DNA from: a virus
Strand: one strand, 5' to 3'
Virus record (IMG/VR): IMGVR_UViG_3300023176_003532
Span: 1-36,912 of that record
Length of the DNA stretch: 36,912 bases
Shown: one piece after another, positions 1,853 to 33,025 of the stretch
Position numbering within the stretch: position 1 is the first letter of the stretch
Layout: every line of letters starts with the position of its first letter
Notes under the pieces: model-generated
What the model saw: only the letters and a program-made list of their open reading frames with translations
What the model was told of the DNA's origin: nothing
Database searches by the model: none
Position numbers and translations under genes: made by a program

Positions 1853-2182
1853 TTACTTTTTAGTCCAGGCTTGAGCTCCAAAGAATGCAGCAACAATACC
1901 AGCAACAGCAATAAAATATACTCCTGCCATATCACCTAAGATATCAGCTGCCTTTTCCAAACCAATTACGTTTGAACCGACAACCAATACTGGATATGCT
2001 AACATTCCATATAAAGAAAACCATGCCATAGATCTTTGTGCATCTCTCATAGCATCCTGGTCTTCGAGTTCTTTTCTTTTAAACTCTAAGTACATCTGTT
2101 CTTCTTCTTTAGAGACTTTTCCATCTCCGTTAGTATCAGCAGGATGAAACCCGCCAGAATTATTAGTTACTTCTTCTGACAT
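1853..2182 (-). CDS. Small membrane protein with an EF-hand loop
   Basis: The 109-residue protein has a perfect EF-hand Ca2+ loop at 16-27 (D-x-N-x-D-G-K-V-S-x-x-E), then a charged amphipathic stretch (EFKRKELEDQDAMRDAQR), then two hydrophobic segments (about 52-72 and 85-105). The loop is predicted on the cytoplasmic side. Two membrane spans at this size also fit a class II-like holin, but nothing here proves a lysis role. It is the last gene of the leftward operon, one base after the preceding membrane-protein gene, and ends at the shared terminator. EF-hand membrane proteins of this kind occur in marine T4-like phages as uncharacterised proteins. Confidence 0.6.
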   Translation of the reverse strand: MSEEVTNNSGGFHPADTNGDGKVSKEEEQMYLEFKRKELEDQDAMRDAQRSMAWFSLYGMLAYPVLVVGSNVIGLEKAADILGDMAGVYFIAVAGIVAAFFGAQAWTKK

Positions 2183-2183
2183 T

Positions 2184-2396
2184 TTACTTTACCTCTGCTT
2201 TCCATAATGTCCAAGCACCATAGAGTAATCCACCCCATGCCACTAGATCAATCAGTCCACCAAGTAAAAGATAACCACCACAAACGGCAATTATAACAGT
2301 TCCATCTAACGATGTTCTTTCACCTATTCTGTCTAGAACCCATTCCTTTAATAATTTTAAAGATACGACTCCTTTTAACATATCTAGATTTAGCAT
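2184..2396 (-). CDS. Small hydrophobic membrane protein, 70 aa
   Basis: I chose the ATG at 2396 (MLNLDMLKGVV) because AAGGAG lies six bases upstream; the same frame is open further upstream but without such a site. The second half is hydrophobic (TVIIAVCGGYLLLGGLIDLV, then AWGGLLYGAWTLW), giving one or two membrane spans. It sits in the leftward operon between a 54-residue membrane protein and the EF-hand protein. Holin or other membrane functions are possible but not shown. Confidence 0.5.
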   Translation of the reverse strand: MLNLDMLKGVVSLKLLKEWVLDRIGERTSLDGTVIIAVCGGYLLLGGLIDLVAWGGLLYGAWTLWKAEVK

Positions 2397-2418
2397 ACAT
2401 TTCTCCTTATTATGTAGA

Positions 2419-2583
2419 TCAAACAATATGTTGAGATCTACTTTTCTTTGCGGTGTGACGAACACCTGTTTTTGTTACGTAAGGATCTTTAGAGATTCCT
2501 TTTGTTCCTGCATCAAATAACATAAAACAAGCCAATGCTGCAAAGGCAGGAATTAATAACGTAGCTATTATTACACCGTCCAT
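2419..2583 (-). CDS. 54-residue membrane microprotein
   Basis: Reading leftward from the ATG at 2583, the product begins MDGVIIATLLIPAFAALACF, a single N-terminal membrane anchor or signal, then GTKGISKDPYVTKTGVRHTAKK, a basic soluble tail. It fills the gap between the Fe-S carrier gene (ends 2587) and the next membrane gene. Operon position and codon continuity support it; the ribosome-binding site is weak. The family is not recognised. Confidence 0.55.
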   Translation of the reverse strand: MDGVIIATLLIPAFAALACFMLFDAGTKGISKDPYVTKTGVRHTAKKSRSQHIV

Positions 2584-2586
2584 ATA

Positions 2587-2910
2587 TTAAATTTTAAAAC
2601 TTACTGAAACACCACATCCACAACTCGAAGTTTCTTTTGGATTGATGATTTTAAATTGTTCGTTAAGTCCTTCTTTGATCCAATCTAAAGTTGAACCTTC
2701 TAAAAAAGGTTGTGATAGTTTATCGATAACAATACTAAATTTACCGTAATCTACGATATGATCTTCCACATTAATTGTATCAGTAAATTGAATAAAGTAC
2801 TCGTAACCAGCACAGCCGCCACCAGTAACACCAACTCTGATATCATGTTTGCTCTCTGTTGCTGTTTTCTCAATCGCTTTAGATATTGCTGCATCGGTTA
2901 ATTCTATCAT
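2587..2910 (-). CDS. A-type iron-sulfur carrier (IscA/ErpA/HesB family)
   Basis: The 107-residue length is typical of the family, as are the three cysteines: Cys33 in GGGCAGYEY and Cys97/Cys99 in SSCGCGVSV. In cellular homologues these residues bind an Fe-S cluster or iron for delivery to apo-proteins. The start overlaps the stop of the upstream coiled-coil gene (ATGA). The operon is read from the palindromic late promoter that also faces the haem oxygenase/bilin reductase genes. HesB-like genes are known in marine T4-like phages. A link to ferredoxin supply for the bilin reductase, or to iron freed by haem oxygenase, is inference. Confidence 0.9.
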   Translation of the reverse strand: MIELTDAAISKAIEKTATESKHDIRVGVTGGGCAGYEYFIQFTDTINVEDHIVDYGKFSIVIDKLSQPFLEGSTLDWIKEGLNEQFKIINPKETSSCGCGVSVSFKI

Positions 2911-3068
2911 TTACTCTCTAACTTCTGTATTCTTTCTCGAAGTTCTTGAATTTCTTCTTTTAATTCAGTTGTACCACCAGGCGCAACTGGAGGATGTGTC
3001 CATTCCTCTAATTTTGCAATACGTGCCTCATAGTCAAACCACTCGCTCAATCGTTTAAAAAAAGTCAT
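2907..3068 (-). CDS. 53-residue coiled-coil microprotein, first gene of leftward operon
   Basis: Reading leftward from the ATG at 3068 the product is MTFFKRLSEWFDYEARIAKL, a Pro/Gly hinge (HPPVAPGGTT), then a heptad-like helix (ELKEEIQELRERIQKLESK). AAAGGA lies eight bases upstream of the start. The stop overlaps the start of the Fe-S carrier gene (ATGA), a classic coupling arrangement. It is the first gene after the leftward late promoter. An amphipathic N-terminus followed by a coiled coil suggests a membrane-peripheral or oligomeric adaptor; no family is recognised. Confidence 0.6.
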   Translation of the reverse strand: MTFFKRLSEWFDYEARIAKLEEWTHPPVAPGGTTELKEEIQELRERIQKLESK

Positions 3069-3096: not shown

Positions 3097-3108
3097 TATT
3101 TATAAATA
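3097..3108. promoter_or_regulatory. Palindromic (bidirectional) T4-type late promoter
   Basis: TATTTATAAATA is its own reverse complement, so it holds the T4 late consensus TATAAATA on + (3101-3108) and on - (3104-3097). Rightward, the next start is haem oxygenase at 3153; leftward, the coiled-coil gene at 3068. Both leaders are short. In T4 this element is read by host polymerase with gp55 and the co-activator gp33, and a gp33-like gene lies at 5216. Confidence 0.8.
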
Positions 3109-3152: not shown

Positions 3153-3776
3153 ATGGCAAATAACCTTAAAGAACTAACTAAAGCTCATCACGATAATGCG
3201 GAGCGTACTGAATTCGCAGATATGTTAATGAGTGGTGAAATTCCACCTAAGCTTTACCAAGAATACTTACACGCACAATTACAAAATTATATGGTACTTG
3301 AATCAGCAGTATCTATTCCTATTGACTTAGAACCAATTTTTAGATCATCTCAAATCGAAGAAGATCTCCAAGAACTTGAAAGTATGTTTGATCTTGAAGA
3401 AGTAGAAGACAACTTTAGATCAACAGACGAATATAATGCACATATTCAAAAATTACAAGAAGATGAAGATAACAATGCTCTTCTTGCACATTTATATGTA
3501 AGACACTTCGGAGATGCACACGGTGGCCAGATGATTAAGAAACATGTACCTGGTAGTGGTACCATGTATGAATTTGAAAATAGGTCTGGCCTTATTAAAG
3601 GAGTCCGAGAGCTACTTAATGATGATATGGCAGATGAAGCAAAAATTTGTTTTGAATATGCCGAAAGACTATTTCACGAATTAATTGAAAAGTTTCATAA
3701 CAATGAAGATGAATATAAAAGTGCTGACTCGTTATTAATAGAATCGGGTTGGGCTAGTGAAGAATGGAATGATTGA
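3153..3776 (+). CDS. ho1: Haem oxygenase (HO-1 type)
   Basis: Haem oxygenases open haem to biliverdin IX-alpha, CO and Fe2+ using reduced ferredoxin. The 207-residue protein has the proximal-ligand region LKELTKAHHDNAERTEF (H..AE, ligand probably His13) and the distal-helix signature YVRHFGDAHGGQM at about 116-127, where cellular enzymes have a YvRYLGDLSGGQ-like sequence. GGAG lies upstream of the ATG. The stop overlaps the start of the bilin reductase gene, so haem-to-bilin conversion is encoded as one coupled unit. The expected site of action is the host cytoplasm, late in infection given the upstream late promoter. Confidence 0.92.
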   Translation: MANNLKELTKAHHDNAERTEFADMLMSGEIPPKLYQEYLHAQLQNYMVLESAVSIPIDLEPIFRSSQIEEDLQELESMFDLEEVEDNFRSTDEYNAHIQKLQEDEDNNALLAHLYVRHFGDAHGGQMIKKHVPGSGTMYEFENRSGLIKGVRELLNDDMADEAKICFEYAERLFHELIEKFHNNEDEYKSADSLLIESGWASEEWND

Positions 3777-4458
3777 ATCTGAACTATTTGATAGACTAAG
3801 AGATTTATCTGTAGAATTAAGAAATCTTTTTAGTCGCAGTATGACACTGTATGACAATCCAAAACATACGGCAGATTTAGAAGGTTGGTCTGATTGGTTT
3901 TGGTCAAGCGATACAATTCGTAAAGCACACCTTAAAACAATTGAACCTGTAGGTAAAAATAAATTATGGCTTATGCACATCAATATATTTCCTCAATTCA
4001 ATATTAATCTTCCTATATTTGGTCTAGATATTGTAGCAAACCCTCAAAAAATATCTGGTTGCTTTTGTGACTATTCTCCTATTACTGAAGGATCGCATCC
4101 TTATCTTGATAAATTTGAATTAGAAATAAAAGATCTTACTTGGACTCGAGCTCGTGAAATGCCAGATTGGGCTCAAGAAATATTTTCAAAAAATATTGTA
4201 GGTGCAGGTAGTATTCGTGAAGGAGATGAAACAGATCAATTATGTAATATGGCTTTTAACTTAGCATCTTTTTATTGCACGGAAATGAACAATCCGCAAT
4301 ATCAAAAAACATTTTCATTAGATACTCGAAAAGCACAAAACAAATATTGTCGTAATCAGAAAATGAATCGTATGCTTCATTCCTCAATACTCGCAATGGG
4401 TATATCAGAAGAACGAAAGAATCAATATGTAGAGAATGTATTATTCGAGGAAGTATAA
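3769..4458 (+). CDS. Ferredoxin-dependent bilin reductase, PcyA/PcyX type
   Basis: The 229-residue protein matches the FDBR fold family: LPIFGLDIVA then ISGCFCDYSP, and near the C-terminus NKYCRNQKMNRMLHSSILAMG. His70 and Asp87 are 17 residues apart, the same spacing as catalytic His88 and Asp105 of PcyA. PebA, PebB and PebS have Asn at the His88 position as I recall, so this is closer to PcyA/PcyX. The PcyA Glu76 position aligns with Lys56/Thr57, so the vinyl-reducing Glu seems absent, as expected for an enzyme making phycoerythrobilin rather than phycocyanobilin. I prefer the ATG at 3769 (overlapping the haem oxygenase stop) over a GTG at 3757. Product specificity is inferred. Confidence 0.88.
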   Translation: MIESELFDRLRDLSVELRNLFSRSMTLYDNPKHTADLEGWSDWFWSSDTIRKAHLKTIEPVGKNKLWLMHINIFPQFNINLPIFGLDIVANPQKISGCFCDYSPITEGSHPYLDKFELEIKDLTWTRAREMPDWAQEIFSKNIVGAGSIREGDETDQLCNMAFNLASFYCTEMNNPQYQKTFSLDTRKAQNKYCRNQKMNRMLHSSILAMGISEERKNQYVENVLFEEV

Positions 4459-4605: not shown

Positions 4606-4836
4606 ATGAAGAAATTTGTTATTGCCGCGTGTCTCGTAGCGTTGAGTCCAGTTGTATTAGCAGAAACCGATTATGTTGCACGATTAAATGAAGATGGTAA
4701 GTATTGTGCACGAGTAAAAACCACAGGCCTAAATGGCTTAACACAAACTAAAACGTTTTGTAGAACATTAAAACAATGGGAAGCAAAAGGTTACACTGTT
4801 GGTGCTAAAGAAGTATCAGAGGTAACTAATGATTAA
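4606..4836 (+). CDS. Small secreted/periplasmic protein with two cysteines
   Basis: The 76-residue product has a clear Sec signal peptide (MKKFVIAACLVALSPVVLA, cleavage likely before ETDY) and a mature domain of about 57 residues with Cys34 and Cys52, probably disulfide-bonded in the periplasm. AAGGAG sits about 14 bases upstream of the ATG, which is long. It overlaps the next gene by eight bases, so the two are probably co-expressed. Possible roles are superinfection exclusion or envelope modification, but there is no direct evidence. Confidence 0.6.
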   Translation: MKKFVIAACLVALSPVVLAETDYVARLNEDGKYCARVKTTGLNGLTQTKTFCRTLKQWEAKGYTVGAKEVSEVTND

Positions 4837-5053
4837 AACAATTCGTAATTGGGCTGTAGGAATTTTGATCCTAGGATCATGTATTATCGGACTTATGGGT
4901 CCGTTACTATGGCCTTCATTATATGCACAACAAATTATGCATTCCGCTCCATACGGAATCCCTCTCGTTCAACATCATGTTGAACTATGTGACCTCAGGT
5001 CGTTAAGCGTCATTAATCGTTGTGAGCTTTTTGAACCCATTCGTGTCGCCTAA
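4829..5053 (+). CDS. Small inner-membrane protein, 74 aa
   Basis: A hydrophobic N-terminus (WAVGILILGSCIIGLMGPLLW) predicts one membrane anchor, followed by an exported tail of about 45 residues with two cysteines (ELCDLRSLSVINRC). It overlaps the preceding secreted-protein gene. A membrane protein paired with a secreted one at the edge of the early replication region would fit host-envelope takeover or immunity to superinfection, though this is speculation. Family not recognised. Confidence 0.5.
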   Translation: MIKTIRNWAVGILILGSCIIGLMGPLLWPSLYAQQIMHSAPYGIPLVQHHVELCDLRSLSVINRCELFEPIRVA

Positions 5054-5063
5054 TAAATAAAGG

Positions 5064-5092
5064 TTGACAATTCGCAAAAAGCGTGTTATAAT
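5064..5092 (+). promoter_or_regulatory. Consensus sigma70 (early) promoter
   Basis: TTGACA (5064-5069), 17-base spacer, TATAAT (5087-5092). Both boxes match the bacterial consensus exactly. Transcription would start near 5099, inside a strong inverted repeat followed by T5, so its product may be very short or conditional. Confidence 0.8.
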
Positions 5093-5094
5093 AG

Positions 5095-5131
5095 TTGGTC
5101 TAATGGTGTAAAAGCTATTAGACCAATTTTT
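5095..5131 (+). terminator. Intrinsic terminator nested at the start site of the 5064 promoter
   Basis: TTGGTCTAAT (5095-5104) pairs perfectly with ATTAGACCAA (5117-5126), followed directly by TTTTTAT. For transcripts arriving from 4606-5053 this is a good 10-pair terminator. For transcripts starting near 5099 only the inner part of the stem forms, giving a possible RNA of about 30 nt or an attenuator. Confidence 0.7.
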
Positions 5132-5160: not shown

Positions 5161-5189
5161 TTGACATTCTGTTCAATCTATAGTATAAT
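5161..5189 (+). promoter_or_regulatory. Consensus sigma70 promoter for gp33-gp59-gp32
   Basis: TTGACA (5161-5166), 17-base spacer, TATAAT (5184-5189), an exact consensus. The start near 5196 gives a short leader to the gp33-like gene and reads on through gp59 and gp32. It is the second perfect promoter within 100 bases. Confidence 0.88.
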
Positions 5190-5482: not shown

Positions 5483-6053
5483 TAGTTCATTCGATGCGTA
5501 TGTAAAATATCTTGCATTAAAGAAACATTTTACTACGGATGGATATGACTTCTTTAAATATAATGGAAAGGTCAGAGCATCTTACGAAACCTTCATGTCA
5601 CGCAATGACGCATATTTTTTTGCTAAGCTTACAAAAAGAGACGACTGGTTAAATCTAATCCTCTCAAATGTAATCATAAAACCTGATATCTGGATACGAG
5701 AAATTCTTGAAGAGGAAGCTCAAAACAGATATATAGAATGGAAGAGAAAACAAGATTCTTTGAGTCATGTTTTCAAATCCGAGTTGGTACATCTATTAGA
5801 TGACTATCAACAAAACTTTGTATCACGAGATGGACAACATCCTCATATTATGACGATGTATAGTCAAAAGAAAATCTCTTTAGAGACTTTTACTATTCTA
5901 TCACACCAAGCGAAAGTTTTTTCATACTGGAGTGAAAAAATAGTTGACAAAATCGTATCTTGTGATATAATAAGACTTTCTAAGAAATATAAACCTTTCT
6001 TAGATTATGATGAGAAAAAGTTTAAATCCATAATTCGTGGATACTTTTTTTGA
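5451..6053 (+). CDS. 59: DNA helicase loader, gp59-like
   Basis: gp59 places the gp41 helicase on gp32-coated fork DNA. The 200-residue length is close to T4 gp59 (217), and it has the family pattern of an N-terminal helical region (VKYLALKKHFTTDGYDFFKYNGKV, with T/D/Y-F-KYNGK typical of gp59 proteins) and a C-terminal region of long helices ending YKPFLDYDEKKFKSIIRGYFF. It overlaps the gp33-like gene by 32 bases and precedes gp32, as in T4. Confidence 0.85.
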   Translation: MEKISPTILSDSSFDAYVKYLALKKHFTTDGYDFFKYNGKVRASYETFMSRNDAYFFAKLTKRDDWLNLILSNVIIKPDIWIREILEEEAQNRYIEWKRKQDSLSHVFKSELVHLLDDYQQNFVSRDGQHPHIMTMYSQKKISLETFTILSHQAKVFSYWSEKIVDKIVSCDIIRLSKKYKPFLDYDEKKFKSIIRGYFF

Positions 6054-7363: not shown

Positions 7364-8443
7364 ATGAGTCTATTAGATAAAATGCTCAAAGCAGGTTCGG
7401 TCAAAGGATCGTCCGTACTTGCTAAATCATCGTTTTTTAACGAAAAGGATCCTATTCAAACAGAACTACCTATTGTCAATATCGCATTCTGCGGTTCATT
7501 GAAAGGTGGTTTGCTTCCTGGTCTTACAGTAGTGGCTGGTGAATCTAAGAGTTTCAAAACTTTATTGGGACTCTATTGTATGAAAGCTTACCTTAAGAAA
7601 TATCCTGAAGGTGTAGCAATCTTATATGATTCAGAATATGGTATCACTCCTGAATATCTTGAAAGTTATAATATTGATACGAATCGTGTTATTCACGTAC
7701 CTATTGAAGATGTTGAACAACTTAAGTTTGATGCAACTAAAAGGTTAAATGAAATTGAAAAAGGTGATAAAGTATTCATCATGATCGATTCAGTTGGTAA
7801 CCTTGCTTCTCGTAAAGAGGTTGAAGATGCTGAAAATGAAAAGTCAGTTGCTGATATGTCACGTGCTAAACAGTTGAAATCTTTATTCCGTATTATCACA
7901 CCTAAGCTTACTGGAAAAGATATTCCAATGATTGCGGTTAACCATACCTATAAAGAAATTGGATTGTTTCCTAAGAACGTGGTATCTGGTGGTACAGGTA
8001 TTTACTATTCAGCTAATCAGATCTTTATTATCTCTAAATCTCAAGAAAAAGAAGGAACTGATCTTGCAGGATTTAAATTTACTATCAATATTGAAAAATC
8101 AAGATATGTTAAAGAAAAATCTAAACTGCCTTTCACTGTATTATATGACACTGGTATTCAAAAATATTCAAGTCTCTTTGACTTAGCTCTTGAATCTGGA
8201 CATTTGACAAAAGCTAATCAAGGTTGGTATAATGTAGTTGATATGAAAACTGGTGAAATTATTGAACCAAAAAGACGTTCTAAAGATATTGAATCTGATG
8301 AAGAGTTTTTCAAATCACTTATGGATGATAAAGGCTTCAATGACTTTGTCGAAAAGAAATTTAAACTTACTATGATTGATAGTATACAAGAGGAAGTAGA
8401 AAATGATAGAGAAGACGATACTGTCGAATCTGATACTGAATGA
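7364..8443 (+). CDS. uvsX: RecA-like recombinase UvsX
   Basis: UvsX forms filaments on ssDNA and drives strand invasion for recombination-dependent replication. The Walker A sequence AGESKSFKT at 58-66 closely follows the GPSKSFKS of T4 UvsX; Walker B is VFIMIDSVGNL at about 143-153. The 359-residue length is near T4's 391. I chose the ATG at 7364 because GGAG lies six bases upstream; a GTG at 7352 is in frame but poorly placed. The acidic C-terminus overlaps the helicase gene by 41 bases. Confidence 0.96.
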   Translation: MSLLDKMLKAGSVKGSSVLAKSSFFNEKDPIQTELPIVNIAFCGSLKGGLLPGLTVVAGESKSFKTLLGLYCMKAYLKKYPEGVAILYDSEYGITPEYLESYNIDTNRVIHVPIEDVEQLKFDATKRLNEIEKGDKVFIMIDSVGNLASRKEVEDAENEKSVADMSRAKQLKSLFRIITPKLTGKDIPMIAVNHTYKEIGLFPKNVVSGGTGIYYSANQIFIISKSQEKEGTDLAGFKFTINIEKSRYVKEKSKLPFTVLYDTGIQKYSSLFDLALESGHLTKANQGWYNVVDMKTGEIIEPKRRSKDIESDEEFFKSLMDDKGFNDFVEKKFKLTMIDSIQEEVENDREDDTVESDTE

Positions 8444-14056: not shown

Positions 14057-14890
14057 ATGGCAATTTGGAATAAAAACAATCAAGCTTATTTACCAGATAA
14101 TAAAACTTTATTTGAAGCATTTATGCTATCGGATAAAGATGGCAATATTATTAACTCATTTGGAATTGCTTCAAATATTCCTATTGCTGCAGGTGAATTA
14201 GACGGTTGGGCCGCAATCCATAAATTTGGTGCGGTTCCTCTCATGTCAACAAATCCAGGCGTTGGTTCAGTTTGGGATAAGAGTGATACCTATTATCCTT
14301 GGACTGCATTTGCTACACCAGGACCACTCACGATTTCAACGACAACATCTAACGGAACTTTATCTACATTAGACGATGGAATGACTGTAACGATTGTTGG
14401 TCTTGATGAAAACTTTCTTGATGTTCAAGAAACAATTACAATTTCTGGTAATGCAGGCGCTGGTACTCAGAATTTTGCTCGTGTATATCGAGCATTCACT
14501 TCTCAAGATAATCAAACTCAGGTACGTGTATCTACGACAACAGGGACACCAACCGAAGTTCTTAGAATTAATATTCTAAAAGGCCAAACATTAATGGCTG
14601 TTTATACAGTTCCTGCTGGTAAAACAGCATACCTAACAAAAGGCACAGCTACTTGTGCTGCTAACGCTGACGCAACAATTGATATGTTTGTTCGTTATGG
14701 CGGAGTAGGTGCATTTAGAATTGGTCATACTGCTGAGGTTGCTGGTGTTGGTGGACCATATACATATGAATTTGCTGTTCCACTTCAAATGCCAGAAAAA
14801 ACTGATATTGATGTTAGAGCAACAGTTCGTTCAAATAACGCAAGAGTAACAGCAGCTTTTGATATAATATTAATTGATAATCCTGCTTAA
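14057..14890 (+). CDS. Probable virion structural protein
   Basis: The 277-residue protein is rich in Thr, Ala, Gly and Val with beta-strand character and no enzyme motif. The N-terminal region FGIASNIPIAAGELDGW and GVGSVWDKSDTYYPWTAF look like virion proteins of marine T4-like phages. The second half resembles a jelly-roll or Ig-like domain (VYTVPAGKTAYLTKGTATC). It directly follows the nuclease stop (TAAATG) and ends the late operon that began at 9839. A capsid decoration or fibre role is likely. Confidence 0.55.
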   Translation: MAIWNKNNQAYLPDNKTLFEAFMLSDKDGNIINSFGIASNIPIAAGELDGWAAIHKFGAVPLMSTNPGVGSVWDKSDTYYPWTAFATPGPLTISTTTSNGTLSTLDDGMTVTIVGLDENFLDVQETITISGNAGAGTQNFARVYRAFTSQDNQTQVRVSTTTGTPTEVLRINILKGQTLMAVYTVPAGKTAYLTKGTATCAANADATIDMFVRYGGVGAFRIGHTAEVAGVGGPYTYEFAVPLQMPEKTDIDVRATVRSNNARVTAAFDIILIDNPA

Positions 14891-14894
14891 ATAG

Positions 14895-14923
14895 TTGACA
14901 TAACAACTTAAGTGTGTTATAAT
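14895..14923 (+). promoter_or_regulatory. Consensus sigma70 promoter of the glycan-modification island
   Basis: TTGACA (14895-14900), 17-base spacer, TATAAT (14918-14923), exact match to consensus. Transcription near 14930 would enter the genes from 14954 to 19976. An early promoter here separates this island from the late genes on both sides. Confidence 0.88.
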
Positions 14924-32340: not shown

Positions 32341-32369
32341 TTGACATTTCACATAAACTAGTATATAAT
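32341..32369 (+). promoter_or_regulatory. Consensus sigma70 promoter placed for a leaderless message
   Basis: TTGACA (32341-32346), 17-base spacer, TATAAT (32364-32369). Starting seven bases further on places transcription at or near the A of the ATG at 32376, with no room for a ribosome-binding site. Confidence 0.82.
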
Positions 32370-32996: not shown

Positions 32997-33025
32997 TTGA
33001 CATCTATACCAACCTATGGTATAAT
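32997..33025 (+). promoter_or_regulatory. Consensus sigma70 promoter for primase-ThyX-NrdA
   Basis: TTGACA (32997-33002), 17-base spacer, TATAAT (33020-33025), exact consensus, immediately after the HAD gene stop. Leader of about 25 bases to the primase gene; the message likely reads into thyX and nrdA. Confidence 0.86.

Follow-up and report, generated by a model that had tools for sequence, protein, structure and literature searches.

A lysine-type bilin reductase paired with haem oxygenase in a candidate late transcription unit of a T4-like phage

RESULTS

The DNA analyzed here (the window) is an IMG/VR record of 36,912 bases whose gene content, comprising a gp33-like late regulator, gp59, gp32, UvsX, a gp41-type helicase, primase, ThyX, and NrdA, is that of a T4-like phage. 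The original prediction was that overlapping genes for haem oxygenase (HO) and a bilin reductase form a complete route from haem to bilin. Profile searches showed that this operon is real, with scores of 70.2 bits against a cut-off of 23 for HO (PF01126) and 73.7 bits against a cut-off of 31 for the ferredoxin-dependent bilin reductase (FDBR) (PF05996). The overlap was confirmed as well and measures 8 bp when counted from the ATG at 3769, which is the likely FDBR start because homologues align from Met5 of the longer ORF that opens with GTG. These genes and the neighboring features are listed in Table 1.

Table 1. Features of the haem oxygenase-bilin reductase locus and of its surroundings (window positions unless another contig is named)
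Feature	Position	Strand	Evidence
Haem oxygenase, HO-1/HemO family, 207 aa	3153..3776	+	PF01126 E 2.9e-19; PDB haem oxygenase matches
Lys-type ferredoxin-dependent bilin reductase	3769..4458 (alternative GTG start 3757)	+	PF05996 E 2.3e-20; 5OWG 120 bits; AlphaFold2/Foldseek
Lys56 codon (PcyA Glu76/PcyX Asp55)	3934..3936	+	Lys in 79/79 clade sequences
His70 codon (PcyA His88)	3976..3978	+	FDBR alignments
Asp87 codon (PcyA Asp105)	4027..4029	+	FDBR alignments
TATTTATAAATA, perfect palindrome in which two T4-type late promoter boxes overlap, one on each strand (candidate)	3097..3108	.	Box conservation and placing
53-aa ORF, first of divergent operon	2907..3068	-	Homologues in 35 related loci
A-type Fe-S carrier, IscA/ErpA/SufA-like, Cys33/Cys97/Cys99, divergent operon	2587..2910	-	TIGR00049 E 2.6e-28, above cut-off; PF01521; homologues in 41 related loci
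Three small ORFs, rest of divergent operon (1853-2182, 2184-2465, 2419-2583)	1853..2583	-	First two: homologues in 37 and 39 related loci
Two small ORFs after FDBR (4606-4836, signal-peptide-like; 4829-5053, membrane-like; by eye)	4606..5053	+	Homologues in 31 and 26 related loci
Intrinsic-terminator-like 15-pair stem and T run, candidate end of late unit	5093..5128	+	Consensus match only
Perfect sigma-70 promoter ahead of gp33-gp59-gp32 (second at 5064-5092)	5161..5189	+	TTGACA-N16-18-TATAAT
All seven perfect sigma-70 promoters of the window (including the two above)	5064-5092, 5161-5189, 5944-5971, 8204-8233, 14895-14923, 32341-32369, 32997-33025	+	Motif match
5-Aminolevulinate synthase	L418:13177-14385	-	TIGR01821 557 bits, cut-off 339

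Haem oxygenases convert haem to biliverdin IXα, CO, and Fe2+. The window HO has the proximal His13 as well as the distal helix with GD..GGQ, and His13 and Gly120 are near-invariant among 44 homologues. We found 56 close IMG/VR relatives of the FDBR at 64 to 100% identity, together with many more distant ones and no plasmid relatives; wherever the upstream DNA of the close relatives exists, HO adjoins FDBR. Pairwise dN/dS values, where they could be estimated, were ~0.07 to 0.18 for HO and FDBR alike, indicating purifying selection. Chance or a pseudogene is ruled out by the family matches, the dN/dS values, and synteny. As judged from sequence, HO and FDBR are a complete haem-to-bilin gene pair, and the predicted route is upheld at that level.

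The best PDB sequence match of the FDBR was PcyX_EBK42635 (5OWG), at 120 bits versus 51 bits for PcyA. An AlphaFold2 model, computed from an alignment of window and locus proteins only, had a pLDDT of 90.7 and was predicted to adopt the FDBR fold: Foldseek matched it to PcyA (E = 2.8e-11) and PcyX (E = 4e-10; TM-score of 0.86 by target length) and then to PebB, PebA, HY2, and PebS. PcyA entries stand ahead of PcyX in E-value order, and the deposited PcyX chain is shorter (181 residues). With NF002760, the PcyA equivalog profile, the window FDBR scored 99 bits against a cut-off of 206.

The reductase had been predicted to keep the catalytic His and Asp of PcyA and to lack Glu76, and alignments showed both to be correct: with numbering from ATG 3769, His70 and Asp87 have the same 17-residue spacing as PcyA His88 and Asp105, while the PcyA triad Glu76-His88-Asp105 is incomplete, with Glu76 replaced by Lys56. 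The expected Asn at the His88 position of PebS-type enzymes was also found, in PebA, PebB, and PebS. What the prediction did not record is that the Lys, at a position where PcyX has Asp, is invariant in a whole clade. Among 271 nonredundant FDBRs, leaving out fragments without position 56, the combination at 56/70/87 was Lys-His-Asp for 79 sequences, the Glu-His-Asp of PcyA for 76, and the Asp-His-Asp of PcyX for 64. The 79 distinct Lys-type sequences fall into 49 clusters at 90% identity, with a lowest pairwise identity of 41%, and the Lys is encoded by both of its codons (35 AAA, 8 AAG). Invariance over such divergence, together with the use of two codons, argues for selection on Lys56.

FDBR trees of 73, 209, 63, and 92 rows were computed with the three columns (56, 70, and 87) removed. 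Cyanophage PebS (P-SSM2) shares the fold and is likewise a single-enzyme viral FDBR, but its grouping with the window FDBR was rejected in the 63-row tree (AU test, P = 4.3e-7), in agreement with the view that the enzyme is not of the PebS type. In the fullest tree (92 rows), three phage groups were set apart (100/99) from cyanobacterial and cyanophage PcyA, which has the same fold and His88/Asp105 pair but carries Glu76 in 76/76 sequences of its type. PcyX formed one clade (98/96) and joined a Glu-type phage clade (98/92); the Lys clade containing the window FDBR lay outside this pair with support of its own (99/97). The claim that the enzyme matches PcyX was thus only partly upheld: 5OWG is the nearest structure by sequence, but the window FDBR has Lys rather than Asp, lies outside the PcyX clade, and is ~29 to 33% identical to PcyX-type sequences. 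On this topology, the Lys clade represents a third phage FDBR lineage in the PcyA/PcyX branch.

The Glu-type phage clade proved to be large: a DNA-pattern scan for its motif returned 80 loci (L494 to L573) with 75 ORFs matching the FDBR profile. In these sequences Glu is retained at the Glu76 position, and the tree places them beside PcyX instead of the Lys clade; one of them (L526) branches immediately outside the Asp-type PcyX clade (100/99). Going by IMG dataset numbers, Lys-type contigs are presumably marine or estuarine and many Glu-type contigs presumably fresh-water.

The HO gene and a divergent operon are separated by an 84-bp gap that holds TATTTATAAATA; 44 bp separate the end of its plus-strand box from the HO start, and ~29 bp separate its minus-strand box from the start of the first divergent ORF. 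Of 50 distinct regions, 43 have TATAAATA in the 160 bp ahead of HO (1.9 expected), mostly as the full palindrome. These regions are related by descent and the 43 occurrences are not independent events; the box nevertheless stays constant among variable flanking bases. Counted over the entire window, TATAAATA shows no enrichment (4 sites against 6 expected), and it is the placing that is notable. In an overlapping 137-kb contig (G462), 8 of 11 sites are intergenic and lie 29 to 61 bp before a same-strand start, while random sites would fall between genes and no more than 110 bp from a start at a frequency of 0.018. Because of this placing, we read TATAAATA as a candidate late promoter of the lineage, which supports the view that HO-FDBR is a T4-type late transcription unit, apparently switched on late in infection. 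TATTTATAAATA, which the lineage conserves, would then be a candidate T4-type late promoter acting in both directions; a text search of titles and abstracts gave no direct report of a T4 late promoter that is palindromic or bidirectional.

On the opposite strand ahead of HO, an IscA-like carrier (41 loci) and small ORFs are often present, although the carrier gene is absent beside the cassette in some relatives (e.g., L009 to L016). Downstream, the order HO-FDBR-gp33-gp59-gp32-(small ORF)-uvsX-gp41 holds in nearly all relatives with enough sequence, both viral and MAG derived. The two small ORFs that follow FDBR had no PHROG match. The perfect TTGACA-N16-18-TATAAT motif occurs 7 times in the window (0.09 expected), always on the plus strand.

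The overlapping contig (137,426 bases) matches window positions 14,730 to 36,912 at 99.9% identity; it ends at 14,730, short of HO-FDBR, so that the lack of an FDBR match in it says nothing about the cassette. The one tRNA detected in it is tRNA-Glu(UUC) (L416:19144-19218, minus strand), the tRNA of the C5 route, which aminolevulinate synthase bypasses. It also carries NrdB and then 5-aminolevulinate synthase (alaS) ~0.9 kb beyond the window end, and many contigs share the gene order primase-ThyX-NrdA-NrdB-alaS. An FDBR above the cut-off was present in 10 of 50 alaS-bearing contigs (nine Lys-type, one Asp-type), each with HO alongside. Given the alaS gene of the overlapping contig and these FDBR-bearing contigs, the published valaS-hemO-pcyA/X set is very probably complete, with all three genes, in the phage of the window. 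The published phages (Wegner et al. 2024, PMC11480375) likewise have HO, FDBR, and 5-aminolevulinate synthase in one phage in a broken-up arrangement.

DISCUSSION

Our overall account, which we consider reasonably probable, is that a T4-like phage makes a two-enzyme haem-catabolic unit, HO and a Lys-type FDBR, late in infection. HO would open haem to biliverdin and free its iron, and the FDBR, an enzyme of the PcyA/PcyX branch, would reduce biliverdin with host ferredoxin; no ferredoxin gene was found among the profiled window ORFs. The FDBR would presumably work by the His/Asp mechanism and, with no acid at the Glu76 position, leave the 18-vinyl group intact. This retention is predicted because Glu76 is reported to be required for 18-vinyl reduction; the residue is absent from PcyX and from pre-PcyA enzymes, which make phytochromobilin or phycoerythrobilin (PEB) (PMC10151467). 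The relations between structure and function in FDBRs are reported not to be reliably predictable (PMC13193486). We tentatively and modestly favor PEB as the most likely main product. Phytochromobilin or 15,16-dihydrobiliverdin would be a possible but less probable outcome, and PCB is less likely again.

Several readings compete with this account. The FDBR could be an ordinary PcyX-like one-enzyme PEB synthase in which the Lys is a neutral change at a noncatalytic position, the Asp at the Glu76 position of PcyX being reportedly noncatalytic according to the 2018 PcyX structure paper. The two systems have much in common: an HO-FDBR cassette, as in Pelagibacter phage Mosig, a PcyA-branch fold, the His/Asp pair, the lack of Glu76, and non-cyanobacterial myophages as carriers. 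The best PDB match, 5OWG, fits as well. We nevertheless think this reading unlikely, though not lightly dismissed, in view of a Lys that is invariant down to 41% identity despite its two codons and of the separate position of the Lys clade. Membership does not confer PEB as a product either, because the Lys clade lies outside the PcyX and Glu-type clades. According to PMC11480375, PcyX makes PEB, and the FDBR of phage CB_2, a PcyA lying between PcyX and PcyA and without the Asp55 of PcyX, makes PCB, which shows that products vary in this neighborhood. A PCB-making enzyme like that of CB_2, providing a phytochrome-type chromophore for the host, would also suit the closeness of the Glu-type phage clade on the tree; the CB_2 PcyA and that clade belong, like the window FDBR, to one large branch of phage FDBRs. 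The window FDBR lacks the Glu76 reported as necessary for 18-vinyl reduction (PMC10151467), and CB_2, whose genome includes both hemO and valaS, was compared through its description in PMC11480375; we regard this reading as improbable.

A third possibility is that the cassette supplements light harvesting in a cyanobacterial host, as proposed for cyanophage pebS and pcyA. Bilins serve as chromophores of the phycobilisome, FDBRs are known from T4-like cyanophages, and the best match of the window UvsX is a Synechococcus phage. Against this, gp23 (65%) and terminase (59%) are closest to Sinorhizobium phages of the phiM12 group and NrdA (72%) to the Methylophilales phage Melnitz, and psbA was absent from 47 window relatives and 5 large contigs of up to 170 kb. 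We rejected cyanophage identity on the absence of psbA from these 52 related records, and a light-harvesting role seems highly improbable. The window's phage is probably non-cyanobacterial, as originally proposed; its host is most likely a heterotrophic proteobacterium and probably a non-photosynthetic aquatic bacterium.

If HO and the Lys-type FDBR do act as a late haem-catabolic unit, the benefit may lie in late haem turnover and iron supply, a weaker inference drawn from the gene neighborhood only. Iron would be handed to the co-regulated IscA-type carrier, consumption of biliverdin by the FDBR would pull HO forward, and the phage aminolevulinate synthase would refill the haem pool. Light sensing or phytochrome supply may be the purpose instead. 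The late promoter shared with the Fe-S carrier and the phage aminolevulinate synthase narrow the choice toward late haem turnover or iron handling over early metabolic takeover. A more ambitious version, which we put forward as a speculation of doubtful standing, holds that the enzymes form a third phage-specific class of bilin reductases with an invariant Lys and a regiochemistry of their own, possibly yielding a two-electron product such as phytochromobilin or a bilin still to be assigned, in a late haem-turnover and iron-supply module with the IscA-type carrier and aminolevulinate synthase.

The Lys-type branch of the reductase family is apparently undescribed, and the advance is a Lys-type FDBR clade within an already described class of bilin-making phages. 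Main-text passages of PMC11480375 make no mention of a Lys-type FDBR, a late promoter, or an IscA-like partner; some contigs of the Lys clade may already stand in the trees of that paper. Each of the three phage FDBR clades has its own residue at one active-site position, namely Glu (found also in PCB-making PcyA), Asp (that of PEB-making PcyX), or Lys, and together they constitute a natural mutant series for what sets bilin-reductase regiospecificity. Gene placement differs too: the Mosig cassette lies beside neck genes, while that of the window lies between the IscA-like operon and gp33/gp59/gp32. Upstream of the Mosig HO-PcyX cassette, at a distance of a few genes, lies an annotated ferrochelatase (L001:16354-17124).

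The nearest non-viral FDBRs, on three contigs labeled "Rhodobacteraceae Water_Bin34" and one labeled "Bacteroidetes UBA4009" (L166 to L169), were considered as bacterial genes and rejected as such: gp59, gp32, and uvsX adjoin FDBR on these contigs, which look like phage contigs binned with bacteria. Among 385 genomes of the Water_Bin34 class, the FDBR profile matched in only two others, one above and one below the cut-off, and the two FDBRs read from the former lack the His. PcyX-type FDBRs, 51 to 53% identical to that of Mosig, occur in Pirellulales and Halobacteroidaceae MAGs (L170 and L171), perhaps also misbinned phage contigs. A megablast comparison of a cyanobacterial PcyA region with phages gave no match and was uninformative. 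Elsewhere in the window, genes for a sialyltransferase-like protein (PF00777; 14954-15553), a glycosyltransferase (PF04488; 17817-18476), and a sulfotransferase (PF03567; 18477-19136) lie close together, and the overlapping contig contains two giant ORFs of ~3,400 aa (L414:4436-14575 and L415:7498-17835).
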